Assembly: GCF_017874615.1 (NCBI RefSeq)
Contig: NZ_JAGIKV010000010.1
Span: forward strand, 62,001-126,000
Direction of reading: 5' to 3'
Length of the DNA stretch: 64,000 nt
Origin: Paenibacillus xylanexedens
Lineage (GTDB): Bacteria > Bacillota > Bacilli > Paenibacillales > Paenibacillaceae
Position 1 is the first letter of the stretch. Each line of letters starts with the position of its first letter. The notes under the pieces were generated by a model. The model saw only the letters and a program-made list of their open reading frames with translations, had not been told where the DNA came from and made no database searches. The position numbers and the translations under genes are program-made. Shown piece after piece: positions 6,115 to 22,761 of this stretch.

Positions 6115-7074
6115 TCAGATGCCATAGTTTTCAAGCCAGCGCTGAATGTTCTTCTCCTGCATGTGAAGATACGTATTGATCCACTGGTGGAGATGCATGC
6201 GGCGCGGATCAACGGCGATGGCAATATCGTCATCCTGATCCTCCAGCTGCACATATTGAAGATCAAGGGAGTAGGCTGGATTCTGATCCAAATAACGTGA
6301 AATTTCAAAAGCATCATAGACTGCAGCGATCACTTCGCCTTGCCTCACACGATCAAACAATTCGGAAGTATTCTTGTAGGCAATCTGATTCTGCGTGGGG
6401 AACAGCTCACGTGTGAAGCCTACGTAAGACGTGCCTTGAACAATGCCGATCTGTGTTCCACGTTGCTGAAGCAGCGTTAGCACATCGGGAAATTTGTTTT
6501 TTTTGCCGAGCTCCGCAAGTTGAAGGCGGTTAATCAGCAGTGCTTGTTTGAAATGCAGATATGCATTGGAGAACAGTACTCGCTTCGCCCGCTCCAGGGT
6601 GATACTCAATTTGGATATGCCGACATCCACCTCCCCGGAAGACACCTGATCAATCACTTCATCGAAAGAATCCGCTGTTCGGATATACTCTGGTTTAACT
6701 CCAAGTTTAAGAGCGATGTCGTTGGCAAGCTCAACATCGCTCCCGCGCAGTAACCCTTCTTCATCGGTGTAAAAGAACGGATAACGATCCTCTACCTTCA
6801 ATCCAATCCTCAGCTTGCCCCTGCTCAAAATATCCCGAATATCTTGCGGATATCCTTCTAATTCTTCCGCAGTATAAACTCTTGGCTCACTTCCCTTAGC
6901 TGCCTTAGCTGCTGTGATGTCCGTTTCTGCTGCCCGAGACTGAGCCGTTTCAGTCTGCGGACTTGCTATGGTTGATACAGCGTCTCGGGATACGCTTGTA
7001 CAGGATGAGAGGATAAGTCCTATAGTTAACATGAACAACAGCAAGATGCACAGCCGGCCGTAACTTCTGATCAT
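6115..7074 (-). CDS. Solute-binding lipoprotein, amino-acid type (SBP_bac_3)
   Basis: The product has 319 residues. The ATG at 7074 is preceded by GGAGAAGGGGG; this site overlaps the end of the small peptide gene, whose stop lies 2 bases upstream, so translation is probably coupled. A lipoprotein signal ends in LILSSC with C25 as the lipidated residue. A linker and then an SBP_bac_3 fold follow (LRIGLKVEDRYPFFY, the SGEVDVGI segment, and a typical YDAFEISRYL). This family binds amino acids or small polar ligands outside the membrane. No cognate permease or ATPase is present in the window, so it may serve as a ligand sensor, an immunity lipoprotein or a partner of a distant transporter. It is the last gene of the peptide/acyl operon. 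Confidence 0.85.
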   Translation of the reverse strand: MIRSYGRLCILLLFMLTIGLILSSCTSVSRDAVSTIASPQTETAQSRAAETDITAAKAAKGSEPRVYTAEELEGYPQDIRDILSRGKLRIGLKVEDRYPFFYTDEEGLLRGSDVELANDIALKLGVKPEYIRTADSFDEVIDQVSSGEVDVGISKLSITLERAKRVLFSNAYLHFKQALLINRLQLAELGKKNKFPDVLTLLQQRGTQIGIVQGTSYVGFTRELFPTQNQIAYKNTSELFDRVRQGEVIAAVYDAFEISRYLDQNPAYSLDLQYVQLEDQDDDIAIAVDPRRMHLHQWINTYLHMQEKNIQRWLENYGI

Positions 7075-7076
7075 GG

Positions 7077-7292
7077 TTAGCCCCCTTCTCCTGCAAGTGG
7101 AAGCTGCGTTTTGCGAAAACAAGCTGCACATACGCTCATCTCGTACACTGCAATTCGTATGTGGCAGACTTTGCAACGCGCAATTGAAACAGTTGCCAGT
7201 CCACCGACAACCTCTTCCAGTTCTTCTTCCAGCAGTTCATCGGACTGGGGGTTCTCCTGCTCCGCATCGTTTCCATTCTGTTGATATCCCAT
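7077..7292 (-). CDS. Small peptide with double-glycine leader and paired CxxC motifs; candidate second precursor
   Basis: The gene encodes 71 residues. An ATG with GAGG 6 bases upstream begins it and its TAA lies 2 bases before the next gene, so it sits cleanly in the operon. Residues 18-31 (DELLEEELEEVVGG) look like the acidic end of a double-glycine leader, as cut by C39 peptidase exporters. One such exporter is encoded at 17418. The remaining 40 residues contain C40, C43, C55 and C58 as two CxxC pairs and end in GEGG. This could be an exported disulfide- or thioether-bearing peptide. The alternative is a small zinc-ribbon protein, where the two CxxC pairs bind one zinc and the GG is chance. 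I recognise no named family. Confidence 0.65.
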   Translation of the reverse strand: MGYQQNGNDAEQENPQSDELLEEELEEVVGGLATVSIARCKVCHIRIAVYEMSVCAACFRKTQLPLAGEGG

Positions 7293-7340
7293 CTTCTGCC
7301 TCTTTCGAAGATTACTGAAGCCGTATTGTCTCAGATCATA

Positions 7341-8072
7341 TCAGAGAACAGACGGAATACCGTAACCCCACGTTATATTTTGACCACTCATGCCCTGACC
7401 ATAATCAAGTAACAGGCCTAGACCTTGTACAAGCTCTTCCAATTCAGGCACAGAAGGTTTTAAGGTGAACATATCATAGATCTTCCTGCGACTTCGTCCG
7501 GCATTTATGTGGTTCTCCATACGGTAGTAACCAAACGTTAACGTATTGACCGAGACTCGAAAAGGCGTCATCTCTTTGGCAAAGCTTTTGACATATGCCT
7601 GGGCACCCTGGTTATACACCGGAGAAGAAGGAAATCCACTATAGTGCATCATATCCGCCAGTATGGGTACGATCATCTGTCCACTTTGTTTACGCGCCAT
7701 AAAATGACCTGCTGCACGGGTATATAGAAAGAGTTCACTTAACTGACGATGGCTGGTTAGAGCAAAAGCCGCCGGATCACTTTGGAGCTCAGACAGTTCA
7801 TCCACCCAGCTACTGCCATGAATATAGAAGTCGAGCCCCTGCATATGCTCGGCAGATGCTGACAGTACGGATTCAATTCCCTTCATTCCCAGGTCCGGCG
7901 CAACGATAGTCCGGCAGTTCTTCTGGTCGTGCACAGACAGATCGGAATGAAACTGCTCTGCTTGTTCTGATGTGGCGAAGCTTGCTGTAATCTGCAAGCC
8001 ACGATGTAACAAATATACAACCATCATCTGCATAGCTGTACTCTCTGCATGATGCACATACGCCGTTTTCAT
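7341..8072 (-). CDS. Degenerate short-chain dehydrogenase/reductase-like protein
   Basis: The product has 243 residues starting at an ATG after a GGAGG-like site. The overall pattern is that of an SDR: alternating strands and helices, FYIHGSSWVDEL near the usual NNAG region, and a late segment (FRVSVNTLTFGYYRMENH) like the substrate loop. The key features are missing. The N-terminus lacks TGxxxGIG, and the YxxxK motif is replaced by YNQGAQAYVK with no lysine at the catalytic position. It is therefore probably not a working reductase; it may be a structural partner of the intact SDR upstream or act as a dehydratase-like or binding subunit (inference). It starts 37 bases after that gene. Confidence 0.75.
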   Translation of the reverse strand: MKTAYVHHAESTAMQMMVVYLLHRGLQITASFATSEQAEQFHSDLSVHDQKNCRTIVAPDLGMKGIESVLSASAEHMQGLDFYIHGSSWVDELSELQSDPAAFALTSHRQLSELFLYTRAAGHFMARKQSGQMIVPILADMMHYSGFPSSPVYNQGAQAYVKSFAKEMTPFRVSVNTLTFGYYRMENHINAGRSRRKIYDMFTLKPSVPELEELVQGLGLLLDYGQGMSGQNITWGYGIPSVL

Positions 8073-8109
8073 TAGCTTCCCTCCCTCTGATTCCTATTCA
8101 AGTTTGCCC

Positions 8110-8853
8110 TTAACGCAAAAAGCCGCCATCCAGTTTTAATGTCTGTCCGGTATGATAACGTGCCGCGGGTCCTGCGAGGTATATCACCGCTTCAGCTACC
8201 TCTTCCGCAGACCCTTGCCTTCCGGTGAGGGTGTGGCGCAGAAAATCATTCAGCTTCTCTTGCGACACCTCCCCCGTCATCTCGGTATCAATCATACCTG
8301 GTGCGATGGCACTGACCTGAATGTTGTTTGATGCATACAGGCGGGCATATAACTTCGTCAGCCCCATCAAAGCCCCTTTGGAAGCTGCATAATTGCTTTG
8401 ACCTTCCCGCCCATATATACCGCTCACCGACACCAGGTTGATAATGCTTCCACTGTCCTGAAGAACCATGTAGCTGACCGCTTCCTGTGAGCAATAACAG
8501 GCACCAACATAATTGGTGTCCAGCACCTCATTCCACTGTTGCTCTTCCATCCGCAGTGCCATCTGGTCGCTCGATCTTCCGGCATTATTGATCAGGACAT
8601 CCACACGGCCAAATGTATCAAATACCTCTTTCATCACATCTGCTACAAAAGCATGGTCCGCAACAGAGCCCTTGAACAACCGCATCCGTCCGCCTGCTGC
8701 ACTCACCTCTTCTGTTAGCCGGTCCGCTGCAGCGTCATCCCTGACATAGATGCCTGCCACAATGGCTCCCTCTGCAATGAATCTCAGCGCTATCGCCCGC
8801 CCTATGCCCCGTGATACCCCTGTAACCACAACGACGTGATCACGAAAGGTCAT
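8110..8853 (-). CDS. SDR-family 3-oxoacyl-ACP reductase, FabG-like
   Basis: The product has 247 residues, the normal FabG length. It shows the NADP-binding TGVSRGIG (11-18), NNAG (89-92), and the catalytic S142, Y155 and K159 in VSVSG and NYAASK. FabG proteins reduce beta-ketoacyl-ACP to beta-hydroxyacyl-ACP using NADPH in the cytoplasm. The start ATG overlaps the stop of the acyl carrier protein gene by 4 bases, so the two are translationally coupled. This pairing with a ketosynthase gene just upstream argues for a dedicated acyl chain pathway rather than a random SDR. Chain length and substrate cannot be read from sequence. Confidence 0.9.
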   Translation of the reverse strand: MTFRDHVVVVTGVSRGIGRAIALRFIAEGAIVAGIYVRDDAAADRLTEEVSAAGGRMRLFKGSVADHAFVADVMKEVFDTFGRVDVLINNAGRSSDQMALRMEEQQWNEVLDTNYVGACYCSQEAVSYMVLQDSGSIINLVSVSGIYGREGQSNYAASKGALMGLTKLYARLYASNNIQVSAIAPGMIDTEMTGEVSQEKLNDFLRHTLTGRQGSAEEVAEAVIYLAGPAARYHTGQTLKLDGGFLR

Positions 8854-9155
8854 TGGACTCGCGTCCCTTTGGTCTTTCTGGCCATAATCAGTTCGGCAAT
8901 CGACTGCACATTTCTCAGATGAATCTTTAACTCTGTCGCGGGAAGGTCCTCGACCATCACGCCATATACTTCTTCCATACCAACCATAACCTCAAACGCC
9001 TCCACAGAGTCCAGTCCCAGTTCTTCACCGAACAAAATCATGTCATCCGTAATTTCCTCTGCGGTGATGTCCTCCAGTTTGAGTCGATCAATTAACAACG
9101 TTTGTTTGATTGTCTGTTTGATCTCATCCATCTCTACCTCGTAATTCACTGTCAT
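8850..9155 (-). CDS. Acyl carrier protein
   Basis: The product has 101 residues. I chose the ATG at 9155 because AGGAGG stands 9 bases upstream; a longer frame begins at 9191 without a site. The 4'-phosphopantetheine attachment motif is GLDS with S50 (LFGEELGLDSVEAFEV), followed by the acidic recognition helix. It would carry the growing acyl chain as a thioester. No phosphopantetheinyl transferase is seen nearby, so the housekeeping enzyme would have to activate it. It sits between the fused ketosynthase (stop 39 bases upstream) and the FabG-like reductase (4-base overlap), which makes a compact mini fatty-acid or polyketide set. Confidence 0.93.
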   Translation of the reverse strand: MTVNYEVEMDEIKQTIKQTLLIDRLKLEDITAEEITDDMILFGEELGLDSVEAFEVMVGMEEVYGVMVEDLPATELKIHLRNVQSIAELIMARKTKGTRVQ

Positions 9156-9194
9156 ATGTGTAAGCCTCCTATAATTTTTTTCAATTAACACGGT

Positions 9195-11663
9195 TCACTC
9201 AGCGACGCTACTGACGATTGCCGCAGAATAACTGCCATTAACGGTAGAACTGATGGTCAAAATATGGCGGTATGCAGAAGAGCGCTCAGGCAGGCCCAGA
9301 TGGGCGTAGGTACCTTTGGCAAGCTCATGCATGGCTCCCGGGCTTACAAGCTCTGCAGCCGCCGCGAGATGTAACATCGAACTGTACGATTCTCCATAGC
9401 CTGCCCATGCATTAAGGTTAATGATCGGCACGGATGGCACGGATGGTACGGCCACAGCTTCCCCGATCGAGGATACAGCGACCTGCTCTAACTCCAATTC
9501 ACCGGGACGTCCCACTGAGTTGAGCAAAATCAGATCCATTTGCCCCATGCTGGTTTCAGCTTCATGGAGTGCATCGGTAACTGCCCGGATCAACGCCTCG
9601 CTCTGTCCCGAAGCGTCCTGTGCTGCGCCAGAAGCAACACCGAGTCCACTCAATTCCGCATAGATCCCGGATCGCGTCTGATCAGCTTCTTCCAGGTCAC
9701 TGAGGACCATACAGACACTGCCTTCCGTCATCTCGTAACGGCTGTCCTGCAATCCTTTAGCCCGGTCGATATCCTCCGCAAGCTGGGATCGTTCATCTCC
9801 AGCACCAATCAGACAAGATGTCAGGGCTCCCTCTCGGATCTTGCCCGTTGCATACAATGCGGCAGTCAATCCCTCATTGCCTCCTGTGCTAAAGGAGCTA
9901 TTGAATCCCTTAAATTGCAATTTCTCGGCCGTCTGACCAGCAATGGAATTAATGACCGTATGCGGGAAATAGATCGTACTTGCATACTCGGGGCCTTTGA
10001 CAAATACAGATTCCAGAAAGTTCGAAATACTGCTCGTGCTTCCTCGTGCTGTACCGTAGATAAAACCCGTATGTTCCCGCTGAGACTTGCCCAGCGCTGC
10101 ATCCTCCATCGCTGCAAGGACTGCACCTATCGTATTCTGTGTGAGCTGGTTCATTCTGCGCTCATATTTGCTCTTATCGTAATCTTTTAAGGAGAAGAAG
10201 GACGTCTCCGTTACCTGTTTGGTATCCTTACCGAAAGCCCCGAGTACATTTCCCTTACGGATATCCCCTTTGCTGACGGCACCCACTCCAGTAATGACAA
10301 CACGTCGTCGGGGGACTGCCTCGCCCGGATGCCCTGCAAGTGAATTCTCACGTTCAGGATTCTGCACGCTTGAATACCGCTCTTCTTCAATTCCATTTGT
10401 ACGCAGCACAAGCGAAACATTGTGTCCTCCGAAGCCAGAATTGTTGCAGATCATATATTCCGGGCGCATCGGACGCATCGAATGTTGAATGATATCAACA
10501 TCCTCGCAGCCTTCGCGAGCTTCTTCAAAATGAAGCGTAGCGGGAACGTATCCTTGCCTGATAGCGTAGAGCGAGGTAACCAGCTCCAATGCAGCCGAAG
10601 TACCTAATGTATGACCAAAATAGGCTTTGCTTGAGCTGATAGGAATCGACAGATTAGGCCCGAAACTACCCTGCAGACCACTAATTTCAGCACGATCATT
10701 TGCCTGTGTTCCAGTCCCGTGTGCGTTTACGTATTCAATATCTGTTTTGGATACTCCAGCAAGGCTGATCGCCATCTCCACTGCACGTTGTATACCCGCA
10801 CCTTCCGGGTGAGAAGCCGTCATATGATGGGCATCGTTACTCAACCCATAGGCACATAATTCAGCATAGATCGTAGCACCACGTTCAAGTGCGGCGTCCA
10901 GTCTCTCCAGAACCACAAAAGCAGCACCTTCTCCCAGATTCAATCCGTATTGGGTGCTGAAGGGTGAAGAGGGACGGGAATTAAGTGCACGGAGTACATT
11001 AAATCCGGCATATACACTATGCGACAATGGATCAGATCCACCAGCGAGCATCACATCGGCATACCCCCAGCGAATGAGATCACTTGCATAGCCTATGGCA
11101 TTACCACTCGCAGCACATGCCGTATTTAACGTTGCGACCGGACCTGCCACACCCAGAACTCGCGCTGCATCATCGCCCTGCTGATAAAATGGATACCGGG
11201 ACGTATGATCAACGTCCAACTCAGACAGGTTCCACTGTTCTTCCAAAGATAGAACTCCACCGTTACACGTACCCAGCGTGAGTCCGATCCGCGCAGGAAG
11301 AACGGATGGCTTTCCACCTGTTCCTTTTGCCCTGTCGTGGTGCTTCATGTTATCCCCATGTGCTATTGAAAGGCCACTATCGATTAACGCTTTCCTCGCA
11401 GCAGCGATGGCATACCGTGCACATAAGTCCATGGATAGCTCCGCTGTGCCTGCAAGTGCTCCTTCACGGATGGAATCCTCCAACTGACCTGCAAGTGAAC
11501 TCTGTAACTTATCCGTGTCGAAGCGGGTTACTTCCCGAATTCCGGTCTCAGCAGCAAGCATACGCTCATATACCATCTGCGGGTGATCGCCAAGTGCGCA
11601 TAATACGCCCATGCCTGTAATCACGATACGATCCTTCGTGTTGGTATTCTCTCTGTCGCTCAT
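9195..11663 (-). CDS. Fused ketosynthase: active FabF-like KS plus degenerate, chain-length-factor-like KS
   Basis: The product has 822 residues; the ATG at 11663 follows GGAGAGGAGGG. Residues 10-422 are a complete FabF/KAS II-like domain with C183 (NTACAASG), H315 (NAHGTGT) and H351 (YFGHTLG), the Cys-His-His triad of a condensing enzyme. After a linker of about 30 residues, residues 453-820 form a second KS-like domain. There the cysteine region reads FSTGGNEG, the HGTGT region reads LNSVGRPG and the GH motif reads WAGYGE, so all three catalytic residues are gone. This mirrors the KSalpha/KSbeta (chain length factor) pair of type II polyketide synthases, but here in one chain. It probably elongates ACP-bound chains; the second half may set chain length (inference). 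It starts 16 bases after the GNAT gene. Confidence 0.9.
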   Translation of the reverse strand: MSDRENTNTKDRIVITGMGVLCALGDHPQMVYERMLAAETGIREVTRFDTDKLQSSLAGQLEDSIREGALAGTAELSMDLCARYAIAAARKALIDSGLSIAHGDNMKHHDRAKGTGGKPSVLPARIGLTLGTCNGGVLSLEEQWNLSELDVDHTSRYPFYQQGDDAARVLGVAGPVATLNTACAASGNAIGYASDLIRWGYADVMLAGGSDPLSHSVYAGFNVLRALNSRPSSPFSTQYGLNLGEGAAFVVLERLDAALERGATIYAELCAYGLSNDAHHMTASHPEGAGIQRAVEMAISLAGVSKTDIEYVNAHGTGTQANDRAEISGLQGSFGPNLSIPISSSKAYFGHTLGTSAALELVTSLYAIRQGYVPATLHFEEAREGCEDVDIIQHSMRPMRPEYMICNNSGFGGHNVSLVLRTNGIEEERYSSVQNPERENSLAGHPGEAVPRRRVVITGVGAVSKGDIRKGNVLGAFGKDTKQVTETSFFSLKDYDKSKYERRMNQLTQNTIGAVLAAMEDAALGKSQREHTGFIYGTARGSTSSISNFLESVFVKGPEYASTIYFPHTVINSIAGQTAEKLQFKGFNSSFSTGGNEGLTAALYATGKIREGALTSCLIGAGDERSQLAEDIDRAKGLQDSRYEMTEGSVCMVLSDLEEADQTRSGIYAELSGLGVASGAAQDASGQSEALIRAVTDALHEAETSMGQMDLILLNSVGRPGELELEQVAVSSIGEAVAVPSVPSVPIINLNAWAGYGESYSSMLHLAAAAELVSPGAMHELAKGTYAHLGLPERSSAYRHILTISSTVNGSYSAAIVSSVAE

Positions 11664-11679
11664 ATTCGCCCTCCTCTCC

Positions 11680-12570
11680 TTATCCCAATCGGATATAACT
11701 GCTTCGCTTCTCACTCGTCTTCCAAGAATACGGTGCAAGCCACTGCCGGGAAAGCTTCATCATGATTGGTGTACTTTGGTTAACTGTGAACATCGCGTGG
11801 GGGATGCCTGCCTCCGTTTGAACCCGGATGGATCTGCCCAGCATCTGAAAAGCCAGACCGAACTGTTGATATTCCGGCGCAATATACAGTGCATCATACA
11901 AGATCGTATCCTCGTCCAGTCGATACGTCATCGACCACCCCTGAACTCCCTGTGTGGATTGAATACCAAAGCTGTTGCTTGGTTCCAGGGGAGCAAAGGT
12001 TTTGAACGGAGACAAAAATGAAGGGAAATCAAGCTCTCCTGTTTCAATGGATTGTCTAAGTTGTCCCTCTTCCTGATCTGCCCATAGAAATAACTCCAGC
12101 CCATTGGGGATAGCTCGTTCCCTTAACCAGGTCGCCTCAGCAATTCCGCTTCCAAGATGGATATGGAAAACGACTGATTCACATTGAGGCTGTATCCAGC
12201 CTTCCTTATGCAATAAAGCTTCGATCGTATCCGACGAAGACTTGTCAGAGTAATAGCTCAGAGAGAGCGTAGCCATTTCTTTCTCCATACATAAAATTCG
12301 TGCTTCCTGGAGCAACGATGTAGCGATTTTTTGCCTGCGCCACGGCTTCGATACGAAGATACACTGTAAGACTGCATGCCCGTATCCACCCCGCTGCTCA
12401 AGCACAAGCAGGCCCACGGGGACACCTTGCGATTCTGCTCCGATTAACATGAACCGTTCAGATTCCATTGGATCATTCAAGCTCTGTTCCACTTGTTTGT
12501 ATAACCACTGAAACATGAACGATTTATACTTCAACCTGTCCTGGAGTGTTAGCCGTTTGATAGTGATCAT
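11680..12570 (-). CDS. Tandem GNAT-family acyltransferase
   Basis: The product has 296 residues with two GNAT-like halves. The first (1-140) has a clear acyl-CoA-binding pattern (VLQCIFVSKPWRRQKIATSLL near 88-108). The second (about 145-296) ends with IAPEYQQFGLAFQMLGRSIR, a second degenerate cofactor loop. GNAT proteins move acyl groups from CoA or ACP to amines. In the known selidamide-type RiPPs, GNAT enzymes attach fatty acyl groups to lysine or ornithine side chains of NHLP-type peptides. The position between the precursor and the ketosynthase/ACP genes makes that role attractive here (inference). The start overlaps the symporter gene by 47 bases, and the ketosynthase follows 16 bases later. 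Confidence 0.85.
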   Translation of the reverse strand: MITIKRLTLQDRLKYKSFMFQWLYKQVEQSLNDPMESERFMLIGAESQGVPVGLLVLEQRGGYGHAVLQCIFVSKPWRRQKIATSLLQEARILCMEKEMATLSLSYYSDKSSSDTIEALLHKEGWIQPQCESVVFHIHLGSGIAEATWLRERAIPNGLELFLWADQEEGQLRQSIETGELDFPSFLSPFKTFAPLEPSNSFGIQSTQGVQGWSMTYRLDEDTILYDALYIAPEYQQFGLAFQMLGRSIRVQTEAGIPHAMFTVNQSTPIMMKLSRQWLAPYSWKTSEKRSSYIRLG

Positions 12571-13828
12571 AGTTATCCTTTCTGGCTGACAATAGTGAAG
12601 TGGTTAGACATTGTATGGATACATTCGCAGCCGTAATGATAGGATCAATAATTGGATTCATAGCCAAAAGCAGAATGATGGTGACCTCGGAAGGCAGACC
12701 GAGCATCTCCGCAATAACCGCGATCATACCAATAGAGACAACACCCGGGGAGCCTGCACCAGCAATCGATATCACCACAGCCCCTGCAAGCACCACGATC
12801 CACTGCGACAACGTAAAGTCAAAATCATACAATTGGACGGTAAAGGTGATGCCAAGCGTATACACAAGCACCATACTGTAACGGCACATGATCATGCCCA
12901 GAGGTACGACCAATTGTACGATACGCGGATCTTGCTGAAGCTTCATACTCAGTGCCTCCATACAGGTCGGAACGGTGGCGATACTATTCCGTGTACCGAA
13001 TGCCAGAATTAACGCATCCTTCAATGCAGACAGGATGACCCAGACAGGCTTCCGCAATGTTACAGCCATGATCACAATAGATAGCACAATCAGAATCACG
13101 CTGGAAATGTAAAACATCATAATCAACTTCATCATGGCAGGTAGAATATCCAAATTTAGTGTCGCGAACTGCCCTGCCATCATACAGAAGAGTGCAAAAG
13201 GCAATGCGTACATGGACCAGGAGATCACCTTTTGAAACGCTCCAAACAATACATCAGCAATCTTCAGCACGTCATCTCCCTGCGGTGTCCGCATCATGCC
13301 GACTGCCACCCCAACGATCACGGAAAAAAACAAGATTTGCAGCGTATTGTTTTCCGTCAGCGCTGTGAATATATTGGATGGAATCATGTTAAGCAAAAAC
13401 GAAAATATCCCCTGCGGCTTCTCTTCGATGGACAGGGCACTGTTATCGGCGCTCAGATCGTATACAATAGCCCCAAGTACATGTTTGGATTCTTCTGGCA
13501 GCCCTGCACCCGGACGGCCGATTCCACCAAGACCGAGACCTAGCAGACCACAGAATATCAACGCTATGGTATATACCATGCACATGCGAACGATCATCTT
13601 CATCGCTCCGCTCTGGATAAACAGACTGCCGATGCTAGAGATGATGGCGGTCATCATAATGGGAATGACACACATCTTCAAAAAGGACAGATACAGATCG
13701 CCAAAACGTGATACGGCATGAGCCAACTCAGGAACGTATAATCCTGCCGCAATTCCAGATACCATACAGAGCACAATCATCCAGAATGATTTGATCCATT
13801 TCAATGAGAAAGCTGTCTTCCTTGACAC
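12524..13828 (-). CDS. Dicarboxylate/amino acid:cation symporter-family protein with altered substrate motifs
   Basis: The product has 434 residues with a GTG start after GAGGTG. The fold is that of the DAACS (GltP/DctA) family: multiple membrane helices, the HP1 region FGTRNSIATVPTC, and the TM8 region NPIIDPIITAANVSIQ. Two features depart from the family. The TM7 NMDGT cation motif is replaced by MCRYS, and in TM8 the arginine and last aspartate that bind acidic substrates are absent. It may therefore carry a different substrate or act as a non-transporting membrane component. It is the first gene after the precursor, behind a strong hairpin. A role in self-protection or precursor supply is possible but cannot be shown. 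Confidence 0.85.
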   Translation of the reverse strand: MSRKTAFSLKWIKSFWMIVLCMVSGIAAGLYVPELAHAVSRFGDLYLSFLKMCVIPIMMTAIISSIGSLFIQSGAMKMIVRMCMVYTIALIFCGLLGLGLGGIGRPGAGLPEESKHVLGAIVYDLSADNSALSIEEKPQGIFSFLLNMIPSNIFTALTENNTLQILFFSVIVGVAVGMMRTPQGDDVLKIADVLFGAFQKVISWSMYALPFALFCMMAGQFATLNLDILPAMMKLIMMFYISSVILIVLSIVIMAVTLRKPVWVILSALKDALILAFGTRNSIATVPTCMEALSMKLQQDPRIVQLVVPLGMIMCRYSMVLVYTLGITFTVQLYDFDFTLSQWIVVLAGAVVISIAGAGSPGVVSIGMIAVIAEMLGLPSEVTIILLLAMNPIIDPIITAANVSIQCLTTSLLSARKDNYDHYQTANTPGQVEV

Positions 13829-14471: not shown

Positions 14472-14473
14472 AT

Positions 14474-17392
14474 CTACGCCAGCTGACGGCTGGCCAGTTC
14501 CGCGAAGAGCCCGTTCTGCTCCATCAGCTCCTGATAGGTGCCAGACTGAATGATTCTGCCTTTATCAAATACATAGATATGATCCGCCTGCGTAATCGTA
14601 CTGAGCCGGTGTGCAATCACAATCCTTGTCACCTGAAGCTTGCTGAGGCTTTGGCTGACAATACGCTGTGTTCGGTTGTCCAATGCACTTGTTGCCTCGT
14701 CAAAAAAGAGAATCTTCGGCCGTTTGGCAATGGCTCTGGCAATCATTAAACGCTGCCGTTGTCCACCAGACAGTGTACCTCCACCTTCGGAAATTACGGT
14801 ATGCATGCCCATCGGCATGCTGCGGATGTCATCATCGAATCCAGCCATGGCTGCGGCCTCCCAAGCATCCTGAATCGTCAGATCCGACGTTCCTGTGATA
14901 TTCGTGAAGATATCACCGGACATCAGTTTGCTATTTTGTAACACCACCCCGAACTGACTCCGAAGCAAGCTGATATCAAGCGAACGCAGATCCTGACCAT
15001 CGAAATAAATAGAACCGCTCTGAGGTTGTTCGAAACCCAGTAACAATCGCATCAAGGTAGACTTTCCACAGCCTGATGCCCCGACAAAGGCTACATATTG
15101 TCCTGATTTGATATCCATCGACAGGTCGTTCAACACAAGTGCCTGATCCTCTTCATACCGGAACTGGATATGGCGAATCTCGATCGCTCCACTCACCTCA
15201 CCCGGATCTTCCAACTGATCATGGATTTCAGGTAACGTTTTGAGAATGGGTTTGGCCCGTTCATATAATGGAACAATATTCACCACGGATAACAGTGCTG
15301 TAGCCATACCGAGCATGGCCATAAGGAAGCTGGTAAATGCAGCGAAAAAGGCGATAAACTGTCCTGCCGACATTTCTGAACGGGTAGATACCACCAGATA
15401 GAACAACACCATTGATGTCAGCAATGGGAAAAAGGCTTGAAATACACTGGAGAAGCTATCCAGCATCCGAACTTTATAGGACCACTTTTTCTGCTCCGCA
15501 AATGCTCTGGCCCACAAGAAGAAAGCCCGGTTCTCGGCTGCTGCCATCCGAAATTTGCTCATTCCGTTCAATAGCTGAAGTACTGTTCCGGCAATCTGTC
15601 CCTGAAGCTCCAACAATCGGCGCTGGTAACGTACCTGTAGCAGGCCAATCGCAAAGGTAAATGACATGGAGATGAGGACAAGACCACCCGCCACCAAGGC
15701 AAGAACAGGACTATACCGGAACAATAATGCAAATTGAAAAATGGAGAACACACCTGTTAGCAGCGAACTGATTACTGCACCGGATAACAGCTGCCGAATC
15801 GCATTGATGCTTCCCGCTCTGGAAGCCAAATCCCCGGCTGAATAGTTTCGGAAGAACGAAACCGGCAGATTCAGCAATCGATCCCAGATGGCAGCCTGAA
15901 CCGCATTCTCCACGCGTCCTTCCATACGCAGCGCGGCAAGTGAACCTGCGAGTCGGAACAAGGCAATCGATAACACGACCGCGATGAGGATAAAGGCCAT
16001 CTGTACCAACGGCCCTCGATAAGACTCCGGTATAATGGTATCCACCAGAATACCGCTGGCGAGCGGGACCATAATGCCCAGTAATCCAGCCAGTGCCCCC
16101 ATCAGAATCACCATCACGAGATCCCGACGAACCGAGTGGTGAGCACCATACTGAAGCAGGTCTTTGATGCCAAGCTCACGCGCAGGAAAAGGCCGGTAAA
16201 ACATGTACGCCATCGGCTGTATGGTAGCCGCCATTTCATCATTAACGAACCCATTTTCCCCGTGCATTGGATTCTCCCAGCGATAAGAATTGGCCCCTGC
16301 CGGGATTAATGCAATTGGCTCGCCTGATGTCTCCAGGTATCCAACAAGCGGTCCATTGTCCGCTTCCCACCATTCCCCTTTAAGTGCGACTTGGCGGGAA
16401 CGCACACCGGAAGCTTCCGCCATCTCCTGGACAGGCGAACGCTTTGATTGGCTTTTTAATTTTCGTGTAACAGGCTTCATCACGATACCAGCATAGTCCC
16501 CAACGATCTTGCCTACGGGGTAAAGCGGATCAGTAGAATAAAAGGAGACAACTTGCTGCTCATCCGGCCCGGTAACGGCAATCAGTTTTTTGAGCGCATG
16601 GTCCATTAAGGAATCATCATGCTCCGTACGCTGTTGCAAGCGTTCCTGTTCCTGCAAGCGTTCCTTGGCAACCACGACCGCAAGCCTATTGGCGACTAAT
16701 CGATGGAAGGCATATAACCCGTGAAGTGACGGATCTGTGGGTAACCAGGACTGTGTTGCTCTTACATCGACGACAGCCGCTTGTTGCGTTTCCAGCCAAC
16801 CCGAGGACGTTACGGGTATGTAACAAGCAACTTCTGTAGTAACGGGATGTTCTTTCCCCCAGAGTATCGTGCCATCCTGTACTTTAATCCAGACGGTACG
16901 CATCGGCCTCCAGGTCTGATCAGGTATCAGATTCTGATCTTCCCCAGGTTCCAACAGTGTAAATTCAAGTGGTGAATTCCGTACATTCAGTGCTGCCGAC
17001 CAACTACCAACCCACTGATCTACCCTGGATGCCAGCCACTCGTTATCCCACTGGTCGTTTAATCTTCGGTTCAGGAGTAACTCTTTATCTATCCGGAATA
17101 CTTTGGTACCAACAGACGCTGTTAACAACAAGCCCATTCGCTCCACCATCTGACCATTGTCAAAGCCGAACAAAAGCGCTCCCTCATCCAGACTGAACAT
17201 ATAACGGCGTTTATGTCTTGTTCCGGCGTTCTCTCCTTCCATGACTACAGCAAATACATCCACGTAACCGGAAGCCACGTACCATACACTGTTCTCATCC
17301 GTAATCAGAATAGGGTTATTTCCTTCCACATCATGAATCATTCCAACCTTTGTAAAAAATGACTCCATTTTCGTCCTGATCGGCTCTGCCAC
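14474..17392 (-). CDS. NHLM-system ABC transporter, permease/ATPase (second exporter subunit)
   Basis: The product has 972 residues with a GTG start after GGAGGGGG. A long N-terminal soluble part (about 1-400) lacks a C39 peptidase. Six membrane segments follow (about 420-700), then an ATPase domain with Walker A GASGCGKST (771-779), signature LSGGQ (874-878), Walker B ILFFDE (894-899) and an H-loop AHRLST. This large protein with an uncharacterised N-terminal domain is the known second ABC protein of NHLM bacteriocin systems and pairs with the peptidase-containing ABC protein encoded just upstream (25-base gap). Together they should cut the leader and export the mature peptide. The start codon and spacing suggest one operon with the HlyD gene. 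Confidence 0.93.
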   Translation of the reverse strand: MAEPIRTKMESFFTKVGMIHDVEGNNPILITDENSVWYVASGYVDVFAVVMEGENAGTRHKRRYMFSLDEGALLFGFDNGQMVERMGLLLTASVGTKVFRIDKELLLNRRLNDQWDNEWLASRVDQWVGSWSAALNVRNSPLEFTLLEPGEDQNLIPDQTWRPMRTVWIKVQDGTILWGKEHPVTTEVACYIPVTSSGWLETQQAAVVDVRATQSWLPTDPSLHGLYAFHRLVANRLAVVVAKERLQEQERLQQRTEHDDSLMDHALKKLIAVTGPDEQQVVSFYSTDPLYPVGKIVGDYAGIVMKPVTRKLKSQSKRSPVQEMAEASGVRSRQVALKGEWWEADNGPLVGYLETSGEPIALIPAGANSYRWENPMHGENGFVNDEMAATIQPMAYMFYRPFPARELGIKDLLQYGAHHSVRRDLVMVILMGALAGLLGIMVPLASGILVDTIIPESYRGPLVQMAFILIAVVLSIALFRLAGSLAALRMEGRVENAVQAAIWDRLLNLPVSFFRNYSAGDLASRAGSINAIRQLLSGAVISSLLTGVFSIFQFALLFRYSPVLALVAGGLVLISMSFTFAIGLLQVRYQRRLLELQGQIAGTVLQLLNGMSKFRMAAAENRAFFLWARAFAEQKKWSYKVRMLDSFSSVFQAFFPLLTSMVLFYLVVSTRSEMSAGQFIAFFAAFTSFLMAMLGMATALLSVVNIVPLYERAKPILKTLPEIHDQLEDPGEVSGAIEIRHIQFRYEEDQALVLNDLSMDIKSGQYVAFVGASGCGKSTLMRLLLGFEQPQSGSIYFDGQDLRSLDISLLRSQFGVVLQNSKLMSGDIFTNITGTSDLTIQDAWEAAAMAGFDDDIRSMPMGMHTVISEGGGTLSGGQRQRLMIARAIAKRPKILFFDEATSALDNRTQRIVSQSLSKLQVTRIVIAHRLSTITQADHIYVFDKGRIIQSGTYQELMEQNGLFAELASRQLA

Positions 17393-17417: not shown

Positions 17418-19574
17418 TTACTGACTCTGAATAAGACGGGTGTAATATCCGTTTTGCTCCATCAAAAACGTATGCGTACCCCGTTCAATTATCTTCCCGC
17501 GTTCCAGTACAATAATCTCATCGGCATCCCGGATGGTGCTCAAACGATGAGCCACCGTAATACAGGTCAGACCTCTGCGCCGAAGACTGTCATCGACCAA
17601 TTTCTCTGTTGCCGGATCAAGTGCACTCGTCGCCTCATCCAGGATCAAAATCGACGGATTGCCTGAAAGGGCTCTGGCTATTTCCAGCCGCTGCCGTTGT
17701 CCTCCGCTGAAGTTACCGCCATTCTCCGAAATCAAGTGATCATACCCACCGCTACGTTCTGCGATATGGTCATGAATGACGGCATCTTTGGCTGCACGAA
17801 CGACATCCGTCTCCGGAATCGTTGCATCCCAGAATGTAATATTTTCCTTGATCGTGCCTTCAAGCAGCACAATCTCCTGATCCACAACGGCCAGGGAATT
17901 GCCCATCCGATGCCTGGAGATCTCATCCCGACGCAGATCATCAAATCGAATCTCACCTTCCCACGGTTCATATATTCCGGCAATCAGTTTTGCAATCGTG
18001 GATTTTCCGCTGCCCGAACCGCCAACCAGAGCCACCTTCATACCTGGCTGAATAGACAGATTAAACTGGTCAATTAATGGTGCCTCCAGCTTGCTGTATC
18101 CGTATGTCAGATTACTGATCTGTACCTGACCGGATAACTTGGCACTGTCCTTCTGTTCGTCTGCTTCATCCAGATCCGATTGAATCTGACGATCCACCGG
18201 ATATTGCAACACGTCATCCAAACGTTTCATGCTTCCTCCTGCTTCCTGAATCGTTCCTGCCAGCATGACCATCTCATTCACAGGCTGACTGAAGCTTGCA
18301 GCAAGACTTTGAAAAGCGACCAACGAACCAATGGTCAACGCCCCGTCCATGACTTGAAAACCGCCAAAAAATAACACGGCAACAGCCCCCAGACTGGTCA
18401 ACAGTGTGGGAACAGACATCAGAAACTGATTTGATACGCCAAATTGCTGATTGGATTGCAACAGTTTTGCCTGATAACCTGACCATTTGACGAAAAAATC
18501 AGACTCAGAGCTATTGGACTTCAACGTCTCAATAACCTGAAGTCCATTCATGGAGACACCCTGCATCTTGCCGCTTTCCTGCAACAGGCGCAGATTCTGA
18601 TCGTTGCGCTTACGCGTGATGAATTGCATGAATATAACATTAAGCAGGGATACCCCTACCGTAACTACAGCTAGCAATACACTGTACTGCAACATCAGGA
18701 GCAGATAAAACAGGATCATGACACAATTCAGTGCAGCGACTGCCAGCTGTCCAGACAACAGCTGCGCGACCCGATCATTGATGGCCACCCTTGATGCGAT
18801 GTCTCCGCTATGCCGTTGGGAAAAAAATTCAATCGGCAACCGGAGTACATGCCAGAAAAAACGACTGGATGAGCTTAAAGCCAGTTTCATCTCCAGTCTG
18901 AGCAAGTAGTAGCGCTGCAGCCAAATCAGCAATGCACGCAGCAGTGCCGTTATTCCCATACCAACCAGAAGCGGGAATAACCAATTGGTCAGATGTCCAA
19001 GTAAGACCTGATCAATAAAAATTTTGCTGAACACCGGAATGACCAGACCGGGCAGAACCAGAAACAATCCTGCTATAATCGCATAGACCAGTGCCTTCTC
19101 CGAACCTTGGATTCGACTGGAGAGAGAGCTAAGCAGACTTGACGTTTTGCCTTGTGGGACATAACCCTCCGCAGGCTTCATCGTCAGTACAACACCCGTG
19201 AACGACTGATCTAATTCCTCAAAGGTAATCTCCCGCGGGCCCGTAACCGGATCATTGAGGAACACCCGATCCTTCTGAATGCCCTCCAATACTAGAAAGT
19301 GATTGAAGTTCCAGTGGATGATGACCGGCCATGGCATGTTTCTCAGATCCTCGGGATTTTTACGGTACCCTTTGGCTTCCATTCCATATTGCCTTGCTGC
19401 CTTGAGAATATTGTTCGCTTTACTGCCATCACGGGACACGCCACAGGATATCCGAAGCTCCTCCAGTGGAATGAAACTTTTGTAATAGGAAAGTACGATC
19501 GACAGTGAGGCAGCTCCGCATTCTACAGCTTCCATTTGTAATACCGTCGGCGTTTTCACTCTTCTTGGGGCCAC
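17418..19574 (-). CDS. NHLP-family peptidase/permease/ATPase exporter (C39 peptidase-containing ABC transporter)
   Basis: The product has 718 residues. The start is GTG at 19574 near a GGAGGATGATGGAG stretch. Residues 1-135 are a C39 peptidase with Q13, C19 (EAVECGAAS), H92 (FNHFLVLEG) and D108 (LNDPVTGPR), so the catalytic set is complete. Membrane segments span about 160-450. The ATPase domain has Walker A GGSGSGKS (518-525), signature FSGGQ (623-627), Walker B ILILDE and AHRLST. The enzyme removes double-glycine leaders on the cytoplasmic side and exports the core. It is the obvious processing protease for the precursor at 14005 and perhaps for the small peptide at 7077. Confidence 0.95.
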   Translation of the reverse strand: MAPRRVKTPTVLQMEAVECGAASLSIVLSYYKSFIPLEELRISCGVSRDGSKANNILKAARQYGMEAKGYRKNPEDLRNMPWPVIIHWNFNHFLVLEGIQKDRVFLNDPVTGPREITFEELDQSFTGVVLTMKPAEGYVPQGKTSSLLSSLSSRIQGSEKALVYAIIAGLFLVLPGLVIPVFSKIFIDQVLLGHLTNWLFPLLVGMGITALLRALLIWLQRYYLLRLEMKLALSSSSRFFWHVLRLPIEFFSQRHSGDIASRVAINDRVAQLLSGQLAVAALNCVMILFYLLLMLQYSVLLAVVTVGVSLLNVIFMQFITRKRNDQNLRLLQESGKMQGVSMNGLQVIETLKSNSSESDFFVKWSGYQAKLLQSNQQFGVSNQFLMSVPTLLTSLGAVAVLFFGGFQVMDGALTIGSLVAFQSLAASFSQPVNEMVMLAGTIQEAGGSMKRLDDVLQYPVDRQIQSDLDEADEQKDSAKLSGQVQISNLTYGYSKLEAPLIDQFNLSIQPGMKVALVGGSGSGKSTIAKLIAGIYEPWEGEIRFDDLRRDEISRHRMGNSLAVVDQEIVLLEGTIKENITFWDATIPETDVVRAAKDAVIHDHIAERSGGYDHLISENGGNFSGGQRQRLEIARALSGNPSILILDEATSALDPATEKLVDDSLRRRGLTCITVAHRLSTIRDADEIIVLERGKIIERGTHTFLMEQNGYYTRLIQSQ

Positions 19575-19617
19575 TACTCCATCATCCTCCCTATGCCTGT
19601 TCGACTATATTGACTCC

Positions 19618-20577
19618 TCATTTGAAATAGGGAATGACGGTTGCAATCGGTCGCTGCGAATGAACCGTAATGGTTCCATCCACCGTCATTCCGCTATTCA
19701 GACGCACAGGCGGACCTTGTTTCGTTGTCCAGTTATAACCACTCGACAACTCCGAGTTAGGCGAGAGATTCACGCGCACTTCCAGCGAGAGACCTTGCGA
19801 GGCCATCTGCTCCACAAGACCCTCGTTACCCAATGTAGACTGTAACTCCTGTACCGTTACGGGGAATTCAGATACCGAAACGACCTGCCCGATCATGGAG
19901 CCATATTCTTCACGATTGACGGTACTTGGCGAGACACGGACTTCCATGCCCGGAAGTAACTGCTTGCCTTGATTTACGGGCACATACATAACCCCTATTA
20001 ATTCATCCGTCTGAGACCCGTAGGTCTCCATCCGGAACATCTCCGTTCCTTCACCCACATACATTCCATTCTTAACTAACACCTCGGTGACCTTTCCTGT
20101 GTAAGGACTGACCACTTGAGTCTGGTACTCATAGTTCAGTAACTGCTGCTCCTGCTGCTGTTTTAACTTGCCCAGCTCCGCAACACGCCCTGACTTGCCT
20201 TGAGATGAGGCACTTTGCAGATTGGTGATAGCAAGCTTCGTTTGCCTGATCTGGTCAAGCAATGCCGGTTGCTCGATTCGACCAATCACCTCTCCTTGCT
20301 GAACCGTATCATTCTCCACCACTGCAATATCGGAGATTGCGCCTTCTGAAGAGGTGTGTACCGTTTTTAGGCCGCCCGGCCGAATCAATACACCCTGTCC
20401 TTCTGCCCTCGTGGTCATGGTGCCAAAGATTCCCCAATACAGCGCAGCTGCCAGAATTAAACCTGCTCCGATGAGCACCAACCAGCCTCGGGGAGAGGTG
20501 ACACGTACCAGATTATCCAGCTGTTCAGGAGAAGACAGCCGCTCAAGGGCTACTTTTCGAAAAACCTGTTTATTCAT
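19618..20577 (-). CDS. HlyD-type secretion adaptor of the NHLM system
   Basis: The product has 319 residues with one membrane segment at about 33-53 (WLVLIGAGLILAAALYWGIF). It is followed by biotinyl-lipoyl-like hairpin halves (EVIGRIEQPALL; SPYTGKVTEVLVKNGMYV) around a short coiled coil, then a beta-barrel region. The shortened coiled coil fits Gram-positive and NHLM-type adaptors, which have no outer membrane to reach. It would stabilise or extend the exporter formed by the two ABC proteins. Its ATG overlaps the stop of the upstream lipoprotein gene by 8 bases, with GGGGGAGG as ribosome site inside that gene. The peptidase ABC gene starts 43 bases after it. Confidence 0.92.
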   Translation of the reverse strand: MNKQVFRKVALERLSSPEQLDNLVRVTSPRGWLVLIGAGLILAAALYWGIFGTMTTRAEGQGVLIRPGGLKTVHTSSEGAISDIAVVENDTVQQGEVIGRIEQPALLDQIRQTKLAITNLQSASSQGKSGRVAELGKLKQQQEQQLLNYEYQTQVVSPYTGKVTEVLVKNGMYVGEGTEMFRMETYGSQTDELIGVMYVPVNQGKQLLPGMEVRVSPSTVNREEYGSMIGQVVSVSEFPVTVQELQSTLGNEGLVEQMASQGLSLEVRVNLSPNSELSSGYNWTTKQGPPVRLNSGMTVDGTITVHSQRPIATVIPYFK

Positions 20578-21784
20578 CCTGACCTCCCCCTTTCGCTGAA
20601 TCTCGTGATGAATCTGAAACGGGCTTCAGTGTCTGAAATTTGCCCTGCTGTAACTTCTTCATTACAATGCTCATTCCCTGAACATCACCCTGGGTATCAA
20701 AAAAGTGTTCCCCCGTAACCCCCTCCCAAGATGTAAGGTCGGACAAAGCTTCTGCTATCGCTTTCGGACTTCGTGAACCTGCTTCTTCTATACCCGCAGC
20801 GAGTAATTTCAGTGAATCATATGCCTGTGCTGCCCATTTGTCCGGTGCCTTACCATAGTGTTCAATGTAGGTTGATCGAAAATCTTGATTGACGGTCGAT
20901 TGTCCCTGATCATCGTATACGGAAGCGACGATTGTGCCTTCTACGGACCCGCCGCCTTGTGCAAACTCAGCCGAATCAAGCGCATCTCCCCCGATGATAG
21001 GGGTATCCATACCCGCCGCACGGATTGCTTTGACAAATGTAATTCCTTCGTCCGCTCTTGTCGCGATCATAATCAGATCCGTGTCCAGTGTCTCCCATTT
21101 ATTCGCAATCCGCATCATGTCGGCTCCGTCCTTATAACCTGATACGCGGTCAACCACATTCTGTCCGGATAGTGTAGCCTGACGTTCAAATGCATTCGCG
21201 AGCCCTCTACCATACTCGTCATCGGTATAGTAGATTGCGATATTCTCATGCTTCGTGCCCGCAGCATACAGGGCAAGGGATTGCCCGATCTGATTATCAT
21301 TCGGTATATTTCTAAAAATATAAGGACTGCTCACATCGGTCAGTTTGGGCGAGGTCGATGCCGGAGACAACAGTACAATGCCCGCATTGGCATATATGCG
21401 TGAAGCCGGTACGGTTACGGAAGAACCCCGATGCCCAATGACCGCACTGACGGAGGGATTATCGGCAAATTGCTGCGCGATGGCCATGCCCTTTGTCGTG
21501 GAAGCGCCATCGTCCATCTCCAGCAATTTAATTTTTTTTCCTCCCAGAACACCCTCTTTGTTAATCTGCTCCAGCGCCAACTGAAGTCCTTCACGAAATT
21601 GTTCATTCTGCTTCTCAAAAGGCCATACAGCTCCCACGATGACTTCATTTGATGAGCTTCCAAGCGTCTTTTCTCTGATCTGGTCTGGCGCAGTGTCAGA
21701 TGAACACCCACTGATTACCAGTGCACCAAGCAGTACCACACTCCACAACACCCATTTCAGGTGATTCCCCCCATTTCCATTCAC
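20570..21784 (-). CDS. Branched-chain-amino-acid-type solute-binding lipoprotein (Peripla_BP_6 family)
   Basis: The product has 404 residues from a GTG at 21784. The frame continues upstream to an ATG at 21838 with no ribosome site, whereas GGAGGGAGATAG precedes the GTG. The signal ends in LVISGC, giving lipidated C27. The rest is a type I periplasmic-binding fold (VIVGAVWPFEKQNEQFREGLQ; AVIGHRGSSVTVPASRIY), as in LivJ and AmiC proteins. No LivH/M/G/F partners are present. It is the first gene of the export operon and overlaps the HlyD gene by 8 bases, so it is made together with the exporter. It may sense or bind the product or a signal outside the cell (inference). Confidence 0.85.
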   Translation of the reverse strand: MNGNGGNHLKWVLWSVVLLGALVISGCSSDTAPDQIREKTLGSSSNEVIVGAVWPFEKQNEQFREGLQLALEQINKEGVLGGKKIKLLEMDDGASTTKGMAIAQQFADNPSVSAVIGHRGSSVTVPASRIYANAGIVLLSPASTSPKLTDVSSPYIFRNIPNDNQIGQSLALYAAGTKHENIAIYYTDDEYGRGLANAFERQATLSGQNVVDRVSGYKDGADMMRIANKWETLDTDLIMIATRADEGITFVKAIRAAGMDTPIIGGDALDSAEFAQGGGSVEGTIVASVYDDQGQSTVNQDFRSTYIEHYGKAPDKWAAQAYDSLKLLAAGIEEAGSRSPKAIAEALSDLTSWEGVTGEHFFDTQGDVQGMSIVMKKLQQGKFQTLKPVSDSSRDSAKGGGQDE

Positions 21785-21840
21785 TAGACCTATCTCCCTC
21801 CAGAGCTCAAACCTGGAACGCCCAAGTTTTAATATCATTA

Positions 21841-21846
21841 ATTATA
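21841..21846 (-). promoter_or_regulatory. Candidate -10 element of the export operon
   Basis: On the minus strand the sequence is TATAAT, about 55 bases before the GTG of the lipoprotein and about 25 bases downstream of the phased TTGA repeats. No good -35 stands at the right distance, which fits an activator-dependent promoter. Confidence 0.45.
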
Positions 21847-21870
21847 GAAGCAGCCGAATCATCAAGACCA

Positions 21871-21907
21871 TAAATTGAAATTCAAGTTAACCTCAATTTC
21901 ATATCAA
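21871..21907 (-). promoter_or_regulatory. Three TTGA repeats at 11-bp spacing upstream of the export operon
   Basis: Minus-strand TTGA copies lie at 21904-21907, 21893-21896 and 21882-21885, with a degenerate TTTA at 21871-21874 continuing the same 11-bp phase. They have the same sequence and orientation as the repeats before the precursor gene. The region is shared with the divergent response regulator gene at 22042. Confidence 0.7.
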
Positions 21908-22041
21908 ATTTAATGTATCCAATCGACTTATCCCGGTCCACATGCGATACTTGAAACAGAATACATCGAGGACTTTCGACGAACGATTGGAAGGATACGG
22001 ACTTTGACCAAAGCGATATACATAAGGAGAATGAACGCCCT

Positions 22042-22761
22042 ATGTCTTTGAAAAACACGATTTTGATCGTCGATGATGATCATGAAATCAATGAATTGTT
22101 AACGATGTCTTTGAAACGGGAAGGTTTTCAGACTATATCTGCATACACTGGCGTGGAGGCACTTCGAGCTGCACAGGAGCATTCACCTGATCTTGTACTC
22201 CTGGATGTGCTGTTGCCTGGGATGGATGGTTTTCAAATCTGTAGCGAGATTCGTAAAACGAGTAATGTGCCTATTTTGTTCGTAAGTTGTAAGGATGAAG
22301 CCACAGACAAAGTCATCGGACTTGGGCTGGGAGGGGACGACTTTATCTCCAAACCATTTAGTCCAATTGAGCTGATTGCACGAGTCAAGGCTCATATTCG
22401 GAGAAACAACATGCCACAGAAACAAGAGGAGCAGGTGGATGAAACGCTGGTATTTGATCAACTACTCATCGACCCAGCCACCCATCGTGTACTCGTCGGT
22501 GACAAACCCATTGCTTTGTCGGCCAAGGAATTCAAATTATTGTTCCATCTTGCGAAGAACCCTAACCGCGTATACAAAAATGAACAGCTTTTCTCGCTGC
22601 TCTGGGATGATGTGCATATGGGCGATACGCATACAGTTATGGTGCATATCTATAATCTGCGGAAGAAGCTGGAACAAAATCCGGCCAAGCCACACTATAT
22701 CCGTACAATTCGGGGTGTCGGGTACAAATTCAATGACAAGCCTGTTGAATTCGCAGAGTAA
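22042..22761 (+). CDS. OmpR/PhoB-family response regulator of the peptide cluster
   Basis: The product has 239 residues. The receiver (5-120) shows the acidic DDD (11-13), phosphoacceptor D55 (LVLLDVLLPGMDGF), and K104 (FISKPFSPIE). A winged-helix DNA-binding domain follows (about 140-232), ending YIRTIRGVGYKFND. AAGGAG lies about 12 bases before the ATG, a somewhat long spacing. It is divergent from the export operon, and the shared upstream region contains the 11-bp-phased TTGA repeats, so it is the best candidate to bind them. No kinase gene is adjacent; the hybrid kinase at the far end of the cluster is the likely partner (inference). Confidence 0.93.
   Translation: MSLKNTILIVDDDHEINELLTMSLKREGFQTISAYTGVEALRAAQEHSPDLVLLDVLLPGMDGFQICSEIRKTSNVPILFVSCKDEATDKVIGLGLGGDDFISKPFSPIELIARVKAHIRRNNMPQKQEEQVDETLVFDQLLIDPATHRVLVGDKPIALSAKEFKLLFHLAKNPNRVYKNEQLFSLLWDDVHMGDTHTVMVHIYNLRKKLEQNPAKPHYIRTIRGVGYKFNDKPVEFAE

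Follow-up and report, generated by a model that had tools for sequence, protein, structure and literature searches.

A 64,000-nucleotide window of the Paenibacillus xylanexedens genome (contig NZ_JAGIKV010000010.1, positions 62,001 to 126,000) contains an operon in which a peptide precursor with an NHLP leader and its exporter stand in line with enzymes of acyl-chain synthesis (Table 1). The operon is a single co-directional run at positions 6115–21838 of the reverse strand, from a Peripla_BP_6 lipoprotein gene to an SBP_bac_3 lipoprotein gene, and is followed by a histidine kinase gene. The genes are tightly packed: those of the SDF symporter and the tandem GNAT overlap, as do those of the GNAT and the ketosynthase (KS), the KS and acyl carrier protein (ACP) genes are 3 bp apart, and the ACP and FabG genes overlap by 4 bp. 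Pfam and NCBIfam profiles recovered, at the positions given, every part named in the original prediction, which had been made from the sequence alone; its list lacked the carboxylate symporter, the two substrate-binding lipoproteins and a four-cysteine peptide encoded at 7077–7292. The same profiles detected no LanM and no other enzyme modifying ribosomally synthesized and post-translationally modified peptides (RiPPs) in the operon, in agreement with the absence noted earlier.

Table 1. Genes of the operon, in the direction of its transcription, and adjoining regulatory genes. Counts refer to the 19 distinct loci described in the text.
Gene product	Position	Strand	Evidence and remarks
Peripla_BP_6 lipoprotein, first operon gene	20570..21838	-	lipobox ISGC; PF13458 1.2e-47
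HlyD-type adaptor	19618..20577	-	PF16576/PF13437; 19/19 loci
NHLM_ABC1, C39 peptidase, permease and ATPase	17418..19574	-	TIGR03796 1097 bits, cut-off 853; 19/19 loci
NHLM_ABC2 permease/ATPase	14474..17392	-	TIGR03797 951 bits, cut-off 709; 19/19 loci
NHLP-leader precursor, core SKDGATDFFNGVGSIAEDAARAAIRVGENYGNAQAK	14005..14373	-	TIGR03793
Sodium:dicarboxylate (SDF) symporter	12524..13828	-	PF00375 1.6e-65
Tandem GNAT, proposed peptide acyltransferase	11680..12570	-	PF00583; AlphaFold2 model (predicted local distance difference test score, pLDDT, 84) and Foldseek
Fused ketosynthase-chain-length factor	9195..11738	-	likely start ATG 11663; TIGR03150 5.8e-111
Acyl carrier protein	8850..9191	-	GLDSVE attachment site; PF00550 2.5e-5
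FabG-like 3-oxoacyl-ACP reductase	8110..8853	-	TIGR01830 3.1e-71
Pseudo-SDR (SDR, short-chain dehydrogenase/reductase), conserved FabG partner	7341..8072	-	weak PF13561 1.3e-5
Four-Cys peptide, 71 aa	7077..7292	-	not in the list of open reading frames; double-Gly leader, CxxC...CxxC core
SBP_bac_3 lipoprotein	6115..7074	-	lipobox LSSC; true start ATG 7074; PF00497 1.9e-20
7TMR-DISM hybrid histidine kinase	2676..6026	-	PF07695, HisKA, HATPase, Response_reg
OmpR-type response regulator, divergent	22042..22761	+	PF00072/PF00486

Our survey of GTDB species contigs and 400 Paenibacillaceae genomes found the operon at 19 distinct loci, 17 from the 400-genome scan and two from the contig scan, with Paenibacillus and Cohnella species and one Paenibacillaceae bacterium as the named carriers. 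The genes for HlyD, ABC1, ABC2, the NHLP precursor, GNAT, KS, ACP, FabG and pseudo-SDR are present and collinear at all 19 loci, which places their co-occurrence far beyond chance. Both a chance association and a mis-assembly are ruled out by this collinearity across many assemblies. The pairwise divergences of the components correlate with r between 0.89 and 0.99, pointing to co-inheritance. The comparison of gene order around NHLP precursors proposed in the original prediction thus finds the whole set together, and the separation of export and KS/ACP genes that would have spoken against it is not seen: close relatives of the KS protein (about 45% identity and up) occupy 19 places in the 400 genomes, 17 of them inside the NHLM operon. 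The other two are clustered instead with genes for KASIII, an FkbH-like protein and a 2-oxoacid-dehydrogenase acyltransferase. NHLM_ABC2 itself was found at 26 loci in these genomes, 17 with the KS genes, eight others that we read (L161–L168) and one (G089) at a contig edge. The distribution is patchy, with close relatives of the KS protein in 6 of the 76 genomes of the window's genus, one of which (G039) carries it in the other type of cluster.

The 847-aa KS protein, previously described as a plain ketosynthase, is a fusion of a KS and a chain-length factor (CLF). The KS half keeps its Cys (TACAASG), His (NAHGTGT or NTHGTGT) and Lys/His (SSSKAYFGH) motifs at all fully recovered loci, a survey that leaves out L171 and L126 with their incompletely recovered frames, and the CLF half lacks the Cys/His/His residues, having a STGGNEG-like sequence and no His pair. 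The top Foldseek match of its AlphaFold2 model (pLDDT 72, predicted template modelling score 0.83) is the KS-CLF of PfaC (6riw), aligned over the full length. PfaC has the same fold and the same fused organization, whereas the window protein stands alone, with a discrete ACP, in a RiPP operon; fold and KS-CLF organization are also common to the ishigamide enzyme (6kxd) of a type II polyketide synthase (PKS). The attachment Ser in the GLDSVE motif of the ACP is invariant among the KS loci, and FabG has intact catalytic motifs (TGxxRGIG and S...YxxxK). The pseudo-SDR, which directly follows FabG at every locus, lacks both YxxxK and the glycine-rich motif, the Tyr-Lys pair being absent at every locus and also in sister clusters described below. 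Judged by sequence, the minimal set of a type II PKS or fatty acid synthase (FAS) is present, namely a KS with Cys-His-His, a CLF without them and an ACP with its Ser; no acyltransferase, dehydratase or enoyl reductase of such a system is encoded in the operon. Two other assignments were rejected. The protein is not the ketosynthase of the host FAS, since it is a KS-CLF fusion and other FabF-like KS in the genome have only 35–36% identity to it, and a dehydratase role for the second SDR is unsupported in a protein without YxxxK.

The precursor scores 50.8 bits against TIGR03793 as a protein (cut-off 50.9) and 51.3 bits, over the cut-off, in the genome scan, and it has the VAGG cut site and the 36-aa core described in the original prediction. 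With a GG-containing NHLP leader and TIGR03796 and TIGR03797 transporters above their cut-offs, the operon belongs to the NHLP/NHLM-exported ribosomal peptide systems. At least one core with the motif SKxGAxxFF is encoded at each of the 19 KS loci, and S1, K2, G4, A5, F8 and F9 are invariant across the 19 distinct cores of this kind; their C-terminal halves are replaced between the two main groups. Eight further precursors at these loci combine the same leader with other cores, six of which have Lys2. Lys2 is present in 27 of 29 cores of the KS loci compared with 0 of 13 cores in eight NHLM loci without KS, although neither the Lys2 counts nor the core counts are phylogenetically independent. 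The window core is amphipathic, with a helical moment of 0.61 that is matched by 0.2% of shuffled sequences, and the calculated monoisotopic mass of the unmodified mature peptide is 3669.78.

These results lead us to favor, with a probability of about 70%, a pathway for a lipidated ribosomal peptide, in which the acyl chain would be built by the cluster and transferred by the GNAT to the NHLP core. The KS/CLF, ACP and FabG would extend and reduce a chain carried by the cluster ACP, and the pseudo-SDR would have a structural part alongside them. Because the operon encodes neither an acyltransferase for malonyl loading nor a dehydratase, the loading and any full reduction would depend on the host FAS, and since FabG acts without a dehydratase, the simplest product would end in a 3-hydroxyacyl group. 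The chain is probably of this type, with host FabZ and FabI as enzymes that could act on it further. The tandem GNAT would then move the chain from the ACP to the leader-bound core, most likely to the Lys2 side chain of SKxGAxxFF; we prefer this site because the Ser1 amine is masked until the C39 peptidase cuts and the operon has no gene for a further protease. ABC1, ABC2 and HlyD would remove the leader, with ABC1 cutting after GG, and export a 36-residue amphipathic lipopeptide, possibly a membrane-active bacteriocin or a signal. The acylated peptide with a cluster-built chain proposed originally is thus the best reading of the genomic linkage among the export, GNAT and KS/ACP genes, the acylation itself being what we infer. 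A precedent for the transfer is the characterized tandem GNAT NpuN, whose acylation target is Lys1 of a peptide with a Nif11 leader (PMC13060382).

The distribution of the GNAT bears directly on this proposal. Orthologues at E < 1e-120 are confined to the 17 of 400 genomes that have both the KS and the NHLM genes, and each of these 17 has one. The next matches in these genomes (G094, 3e-46, and G232, 5e-46) both come from loci with LanM and NHLP, and the best non-orthologous GNATs in 300 class-level genomes (1e-50 to 1e-47) again lie in NHLM loci. The nearest GNATs beyond the orthologues thus belong mostly to further NHLP/NHLM loci; as this holds for every one of the best non-orthologues, at E < 1e-45 (G409, G487, G461, G094 and G232), of which two are accompanied by LanM, this type of GNAT appears to follow NHLP peptides. 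The C-terminal GNAT domain has the P-loop [Q/R]xxGxA in 13 of 13 aligned orthologues, and the N-terminal P-loop of the window GNAT and of two near relatives has Lys at the Gly position. A sequence search of the PDB with the window GNAT gave no matches. A plasmid collection contained GNAT homologues without NHLP neighbors, and its single NHLP match, in Tistrella, has a different gene neighborhood.

Some tandem GNAT folds are antibiotic-modifying enzymes, and one of the weaker Foldseek matches of the window GNAT is PamZ (7b3a). The GNAT could accordingly be a self-protection or N-acetylation enzyme, with the KS/CLF making a polyketide that acts together with the peptide, but this seems very improbable, as the best fold matches are other tandem GNATs without a common substrate, and a peptide that is masked by its leader and then exported needs no cytoplasmic resistance enzyme. 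Somewhat less improbable, yet still unlikely, is an arrangement in which the GNAT takes its chain from primary metabolism, host acyl groups being the substrates of characterized selidamide GNATs (PMC9505594, PMC13060382), while the KS/CLF set produces some other molecule or serves only to tune the acyl pool. Loci with GNAT and NHLM genes and without KS do exist (L190–L192). However, an orthologue of the window GNAT is never seen without the KS set in the 400 genomes, and the GNAT, KS, ACP and FabG genes overlap or adjoin within a few bases.

Several observations weigh against a lipidated peptide acylated at Lys2. In an unrooted maximum-likelihood tree the KS-type GNATs form one group (support 100/99) and the other NHLM GNATs a separate one (99/97); without a root, the tree shows no sister relation of the two groups. 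The window GNAT is only 26–28% similar to the LanM-associated GNATs, it is likened to NpuN by description, with the sequence comparison covering those 26–28% relatives from loci with LanM and NHLP, and homologues in Nostoc and Gloeothece occur away from NHLP, as fusions with TIGR03032 proteins. The Lys2 count is partly circular, the main cores having been picked by SKxGAxxFF. Because Lys2 is missing from two accessory cores of the KS loci and from the cores of other GNAT-bearing NHLM loci, the acylation site need not be Lys2.

The NHLM loci without KS place the acyl genes in context. In L161, L163 and L167 the order is Peripla_BP_6 protein, HlyD, ABC1, ABC2, GG peptides, SDF symporter and SBP_bac_3 protein, with no acyl genes between the last two, whereas in the KS loci the GNAT, KS, ACP, FabG and pseudo-SDR genes lie there. 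Since the order of exporter, symporter and binding proteins is kept without them, these five genes look like a discrete cassette for acylation, set between the symporter gene and that of the binding protein. Other cargo was found as well: L162 and L165 combine exporter, NHLP, GNAT and LanM, and L190–L192, from another Bacilli family, have exporter and GNAT without LanM or KS, with NHLP precursors in L190 and L191. Compared with the window operon, the NHLM/NHLP (proteusin-leader) loci of Bacillota have the same ABC1/ABC2/HlyD/NHLP chassis and often the same symporter and binding proteins, but no KS cassette, their cargo being LanM with GNAT, GNAT alone, or GG peptides without a modifying enzyme. 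It seems that a single NHLP export chassis has acquired varied cargo cassettes, LanM with GNAT, GNAT alone, and KS/CLF with GNAT.

The GG peptides of L163 and L167 are apparently exported without any modifying enzyme, and the amphipathic window core is itself plausible as an unmodified peptide. This would fit an operon with two products: a bacteriocin-like peptide exported without modification and, from KS, ACP, FabG and GNAT, a lipid or N-acyl amino acid, this second product possibly tied to the symporter and binding proteins. We regard two products as improbable: the GNAT family tracks NHLP loci, those with LanM included, and the symporter and binding proteins are retained in L161, L163, L167 and L168, which lack both KS and GNAT, and are therefore not tied to an acyl product. 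The window core differs in charge from the GG peptides of L161, L163 and L167, being slightly acidic (net −1) where those are cationic (+2 to +3).

These three loci without KS and GNAT encode cationic amphipathic GG peptides (L163:11603-11797, L167:8020-8214 and L161:7930-8439; for example GLIKGITKGIKKGANDLVDKGKKGANNAIDKG...), with very short leaders of 20 residues in L163 and L167, and with KxGAND-like motifs similar to the start of the KS-locus cores.

Sister sets of KS/CLF, ACP, FabG and pseudo-SDR occur together with KASIII and FkbH-like genes in L026:10001-22167, L126, L127 and L028, from Paenibacillus filicis, two other family genomes and Halalkalibacter; L026, L126 and L127 add a 2-oxoacid-dehydrogenase acyltransferase and an amine oxidase. 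Their gene set resembles that of tetronate pathways, and they are possibly tetronate-like clusters. The occurrence of the KS-ACP-FabG-pseudo-SDR set in both contexts is consistent with a transplantable acyl-chain module.

The original prediction held that no comparable system had been described, which is too strong. The combination of NHLP with a tandem GNAT is known from selidamides (PMC9505594, PMC13060382). RiPPs joined to acyl chains from a dedicated PKS or FAS are known as well, in the form of goadvionins and lipoavitides; both groups are cited in PMC13060382, lipoavitides through Ren 2024. The selidamides phaeornamide, kamptornamide and nostolysamides share with the window operon an NHLP or Nif11 leader, a tandem GNAT and ABC export, and a GNAT-type maturase with an NHLP or Nif11 precursor is what the operon encodes. 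Selidamides are acylated on Lys or Orn side chains, and the conserved Lys2 would be the corresponding candidate site in the window core. Characterized selidamides also have lanthionine rings and fatty acids from primary metabolism; the window operon has no LanM and a dedicated KS/CLF, ACP and FabG. The absence of LanM is not strictly defining, and clusters related to NpuN do not always encode a lanthionine synthetase (PMC13060382).

With lipoavitides the operon shares dedicated discrete FAS enzymes and an acyltransferase for a RiPP. Lipoavitides are reportedly class III-type lanthipeptides acylated at the N-terminus with a short, KASIII-started chain from a non-modular FAS; the window operon differs in its NHLP leader, its KS/CLF and the lack of a lanthionine enzyme. 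In goadvionins and other lipolanthines an acyltransferase joins a ribosomal peptide to a chain made by a PKS, as proposed here. These are products of an actinobacterial PKS and class III lanthipeptides with N-terminal acylation, and they differ from the window operon in leader and exporter. Neither a class III-type lanthipeptide synthetase nor avionin-forming enzymes, as in lipolanthines and lipoavitides, were found in the operon. The literature search, with subscription papers such as Ren 2024 outside its reach, found no system that joins NHLP, a tandem GNAT and a KS/CLF without another maturase, and the window system would therefore be a new variant of lipidated RiPPs. On the evidence of its genes, the product of the operon is very probably a gene-encoded lipopeptide of a new kind. 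If so, it would represent a ribosomal route in cultivable bacteria to lipopeptides of daptomycin- or polymyxin-like architecture, a route that has its own acyl supply and includes no further maturase, and as several carriers are named, sequenced species, the transfer of an acyl group from ACP to an NHLP peptide can be tested directly.

The four-cysteine peptide of 7077–7292 consists of MGYQQNGNDAEQENPQSDELLEEELEEVVGG followed by LATVSIARCKVCHIRIAVYEMSVCAACFRKTQLPLAGEGG, with a leader MGYQ...DELLEEELEEVVGG and a core of 40 aa. Its annotation moves the SBP_bac_3 start to ATG 7074. The core motif CxxC-x11-CxxC is kept, and the leader shares an ELEEVVGG-type cut site with the NHLP precursor. The peptide is found in 14 of the 19 KS loci, exactly the 14 with the 7TMR-DISM histidine kinase, and at E < 1e-30 it occurs in 12 of the 400 genomes, always in kinase-bearing KS clusters and nowhere else. 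It is a candidate second product or pheromone, and the kinase is likely the regulator of the operon. The SDF symporter is present in 18 of the 19 KS loci and four KS-less NHLM loci, the Peripla_BP_6 lipoprotein in 18 of 19 (the fetched region of the remaining locus being too short) and most KS-less NHLM loci, and the SBP_bac_3 lipoprotein in 18 of 19. Two Bacilli families have a secondary carboxylate transporter in their NHLM export loci, either the SDF symporter or, in L191:1-2385 and L192:2-2404, a CitMHS-like protein fused to a binding domain; it may act as a receptor, in immunity or in sensing. We speculate, tentatively, that the operon represents a distinct RiPP class whose sole modification is a KS/CLF-built 3-hydroxyacyl group placed on Lys2 by an acyl-ACP-dependent GNAT, with the four-cysteine peptide as a pheromone for the 7TMR kinase and the symporter and binding lipoproteins as parts of immunity or sensing.

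No Rfam RNA element was matched, and scans for promoters and terminators gave signals no higher than in shuffled sequences. The OmpR-type response regulator stays beside the operon in several relatives. Elsewhere in the window, a lacto-N-biose phosphorylase family enzyme (PF09508) is encoded at 38774-40954, near sensor and sugar-transport genes. Another locus of the window's genome (L174, C5) encodes a second short NHLP-like precursor, of 86 aa, with a 315-aa protein and a histidine kinase as neighbors, an arrangement similar to the PalX/PalQ/PalP prenylated-peptide cluster of P. alvei.

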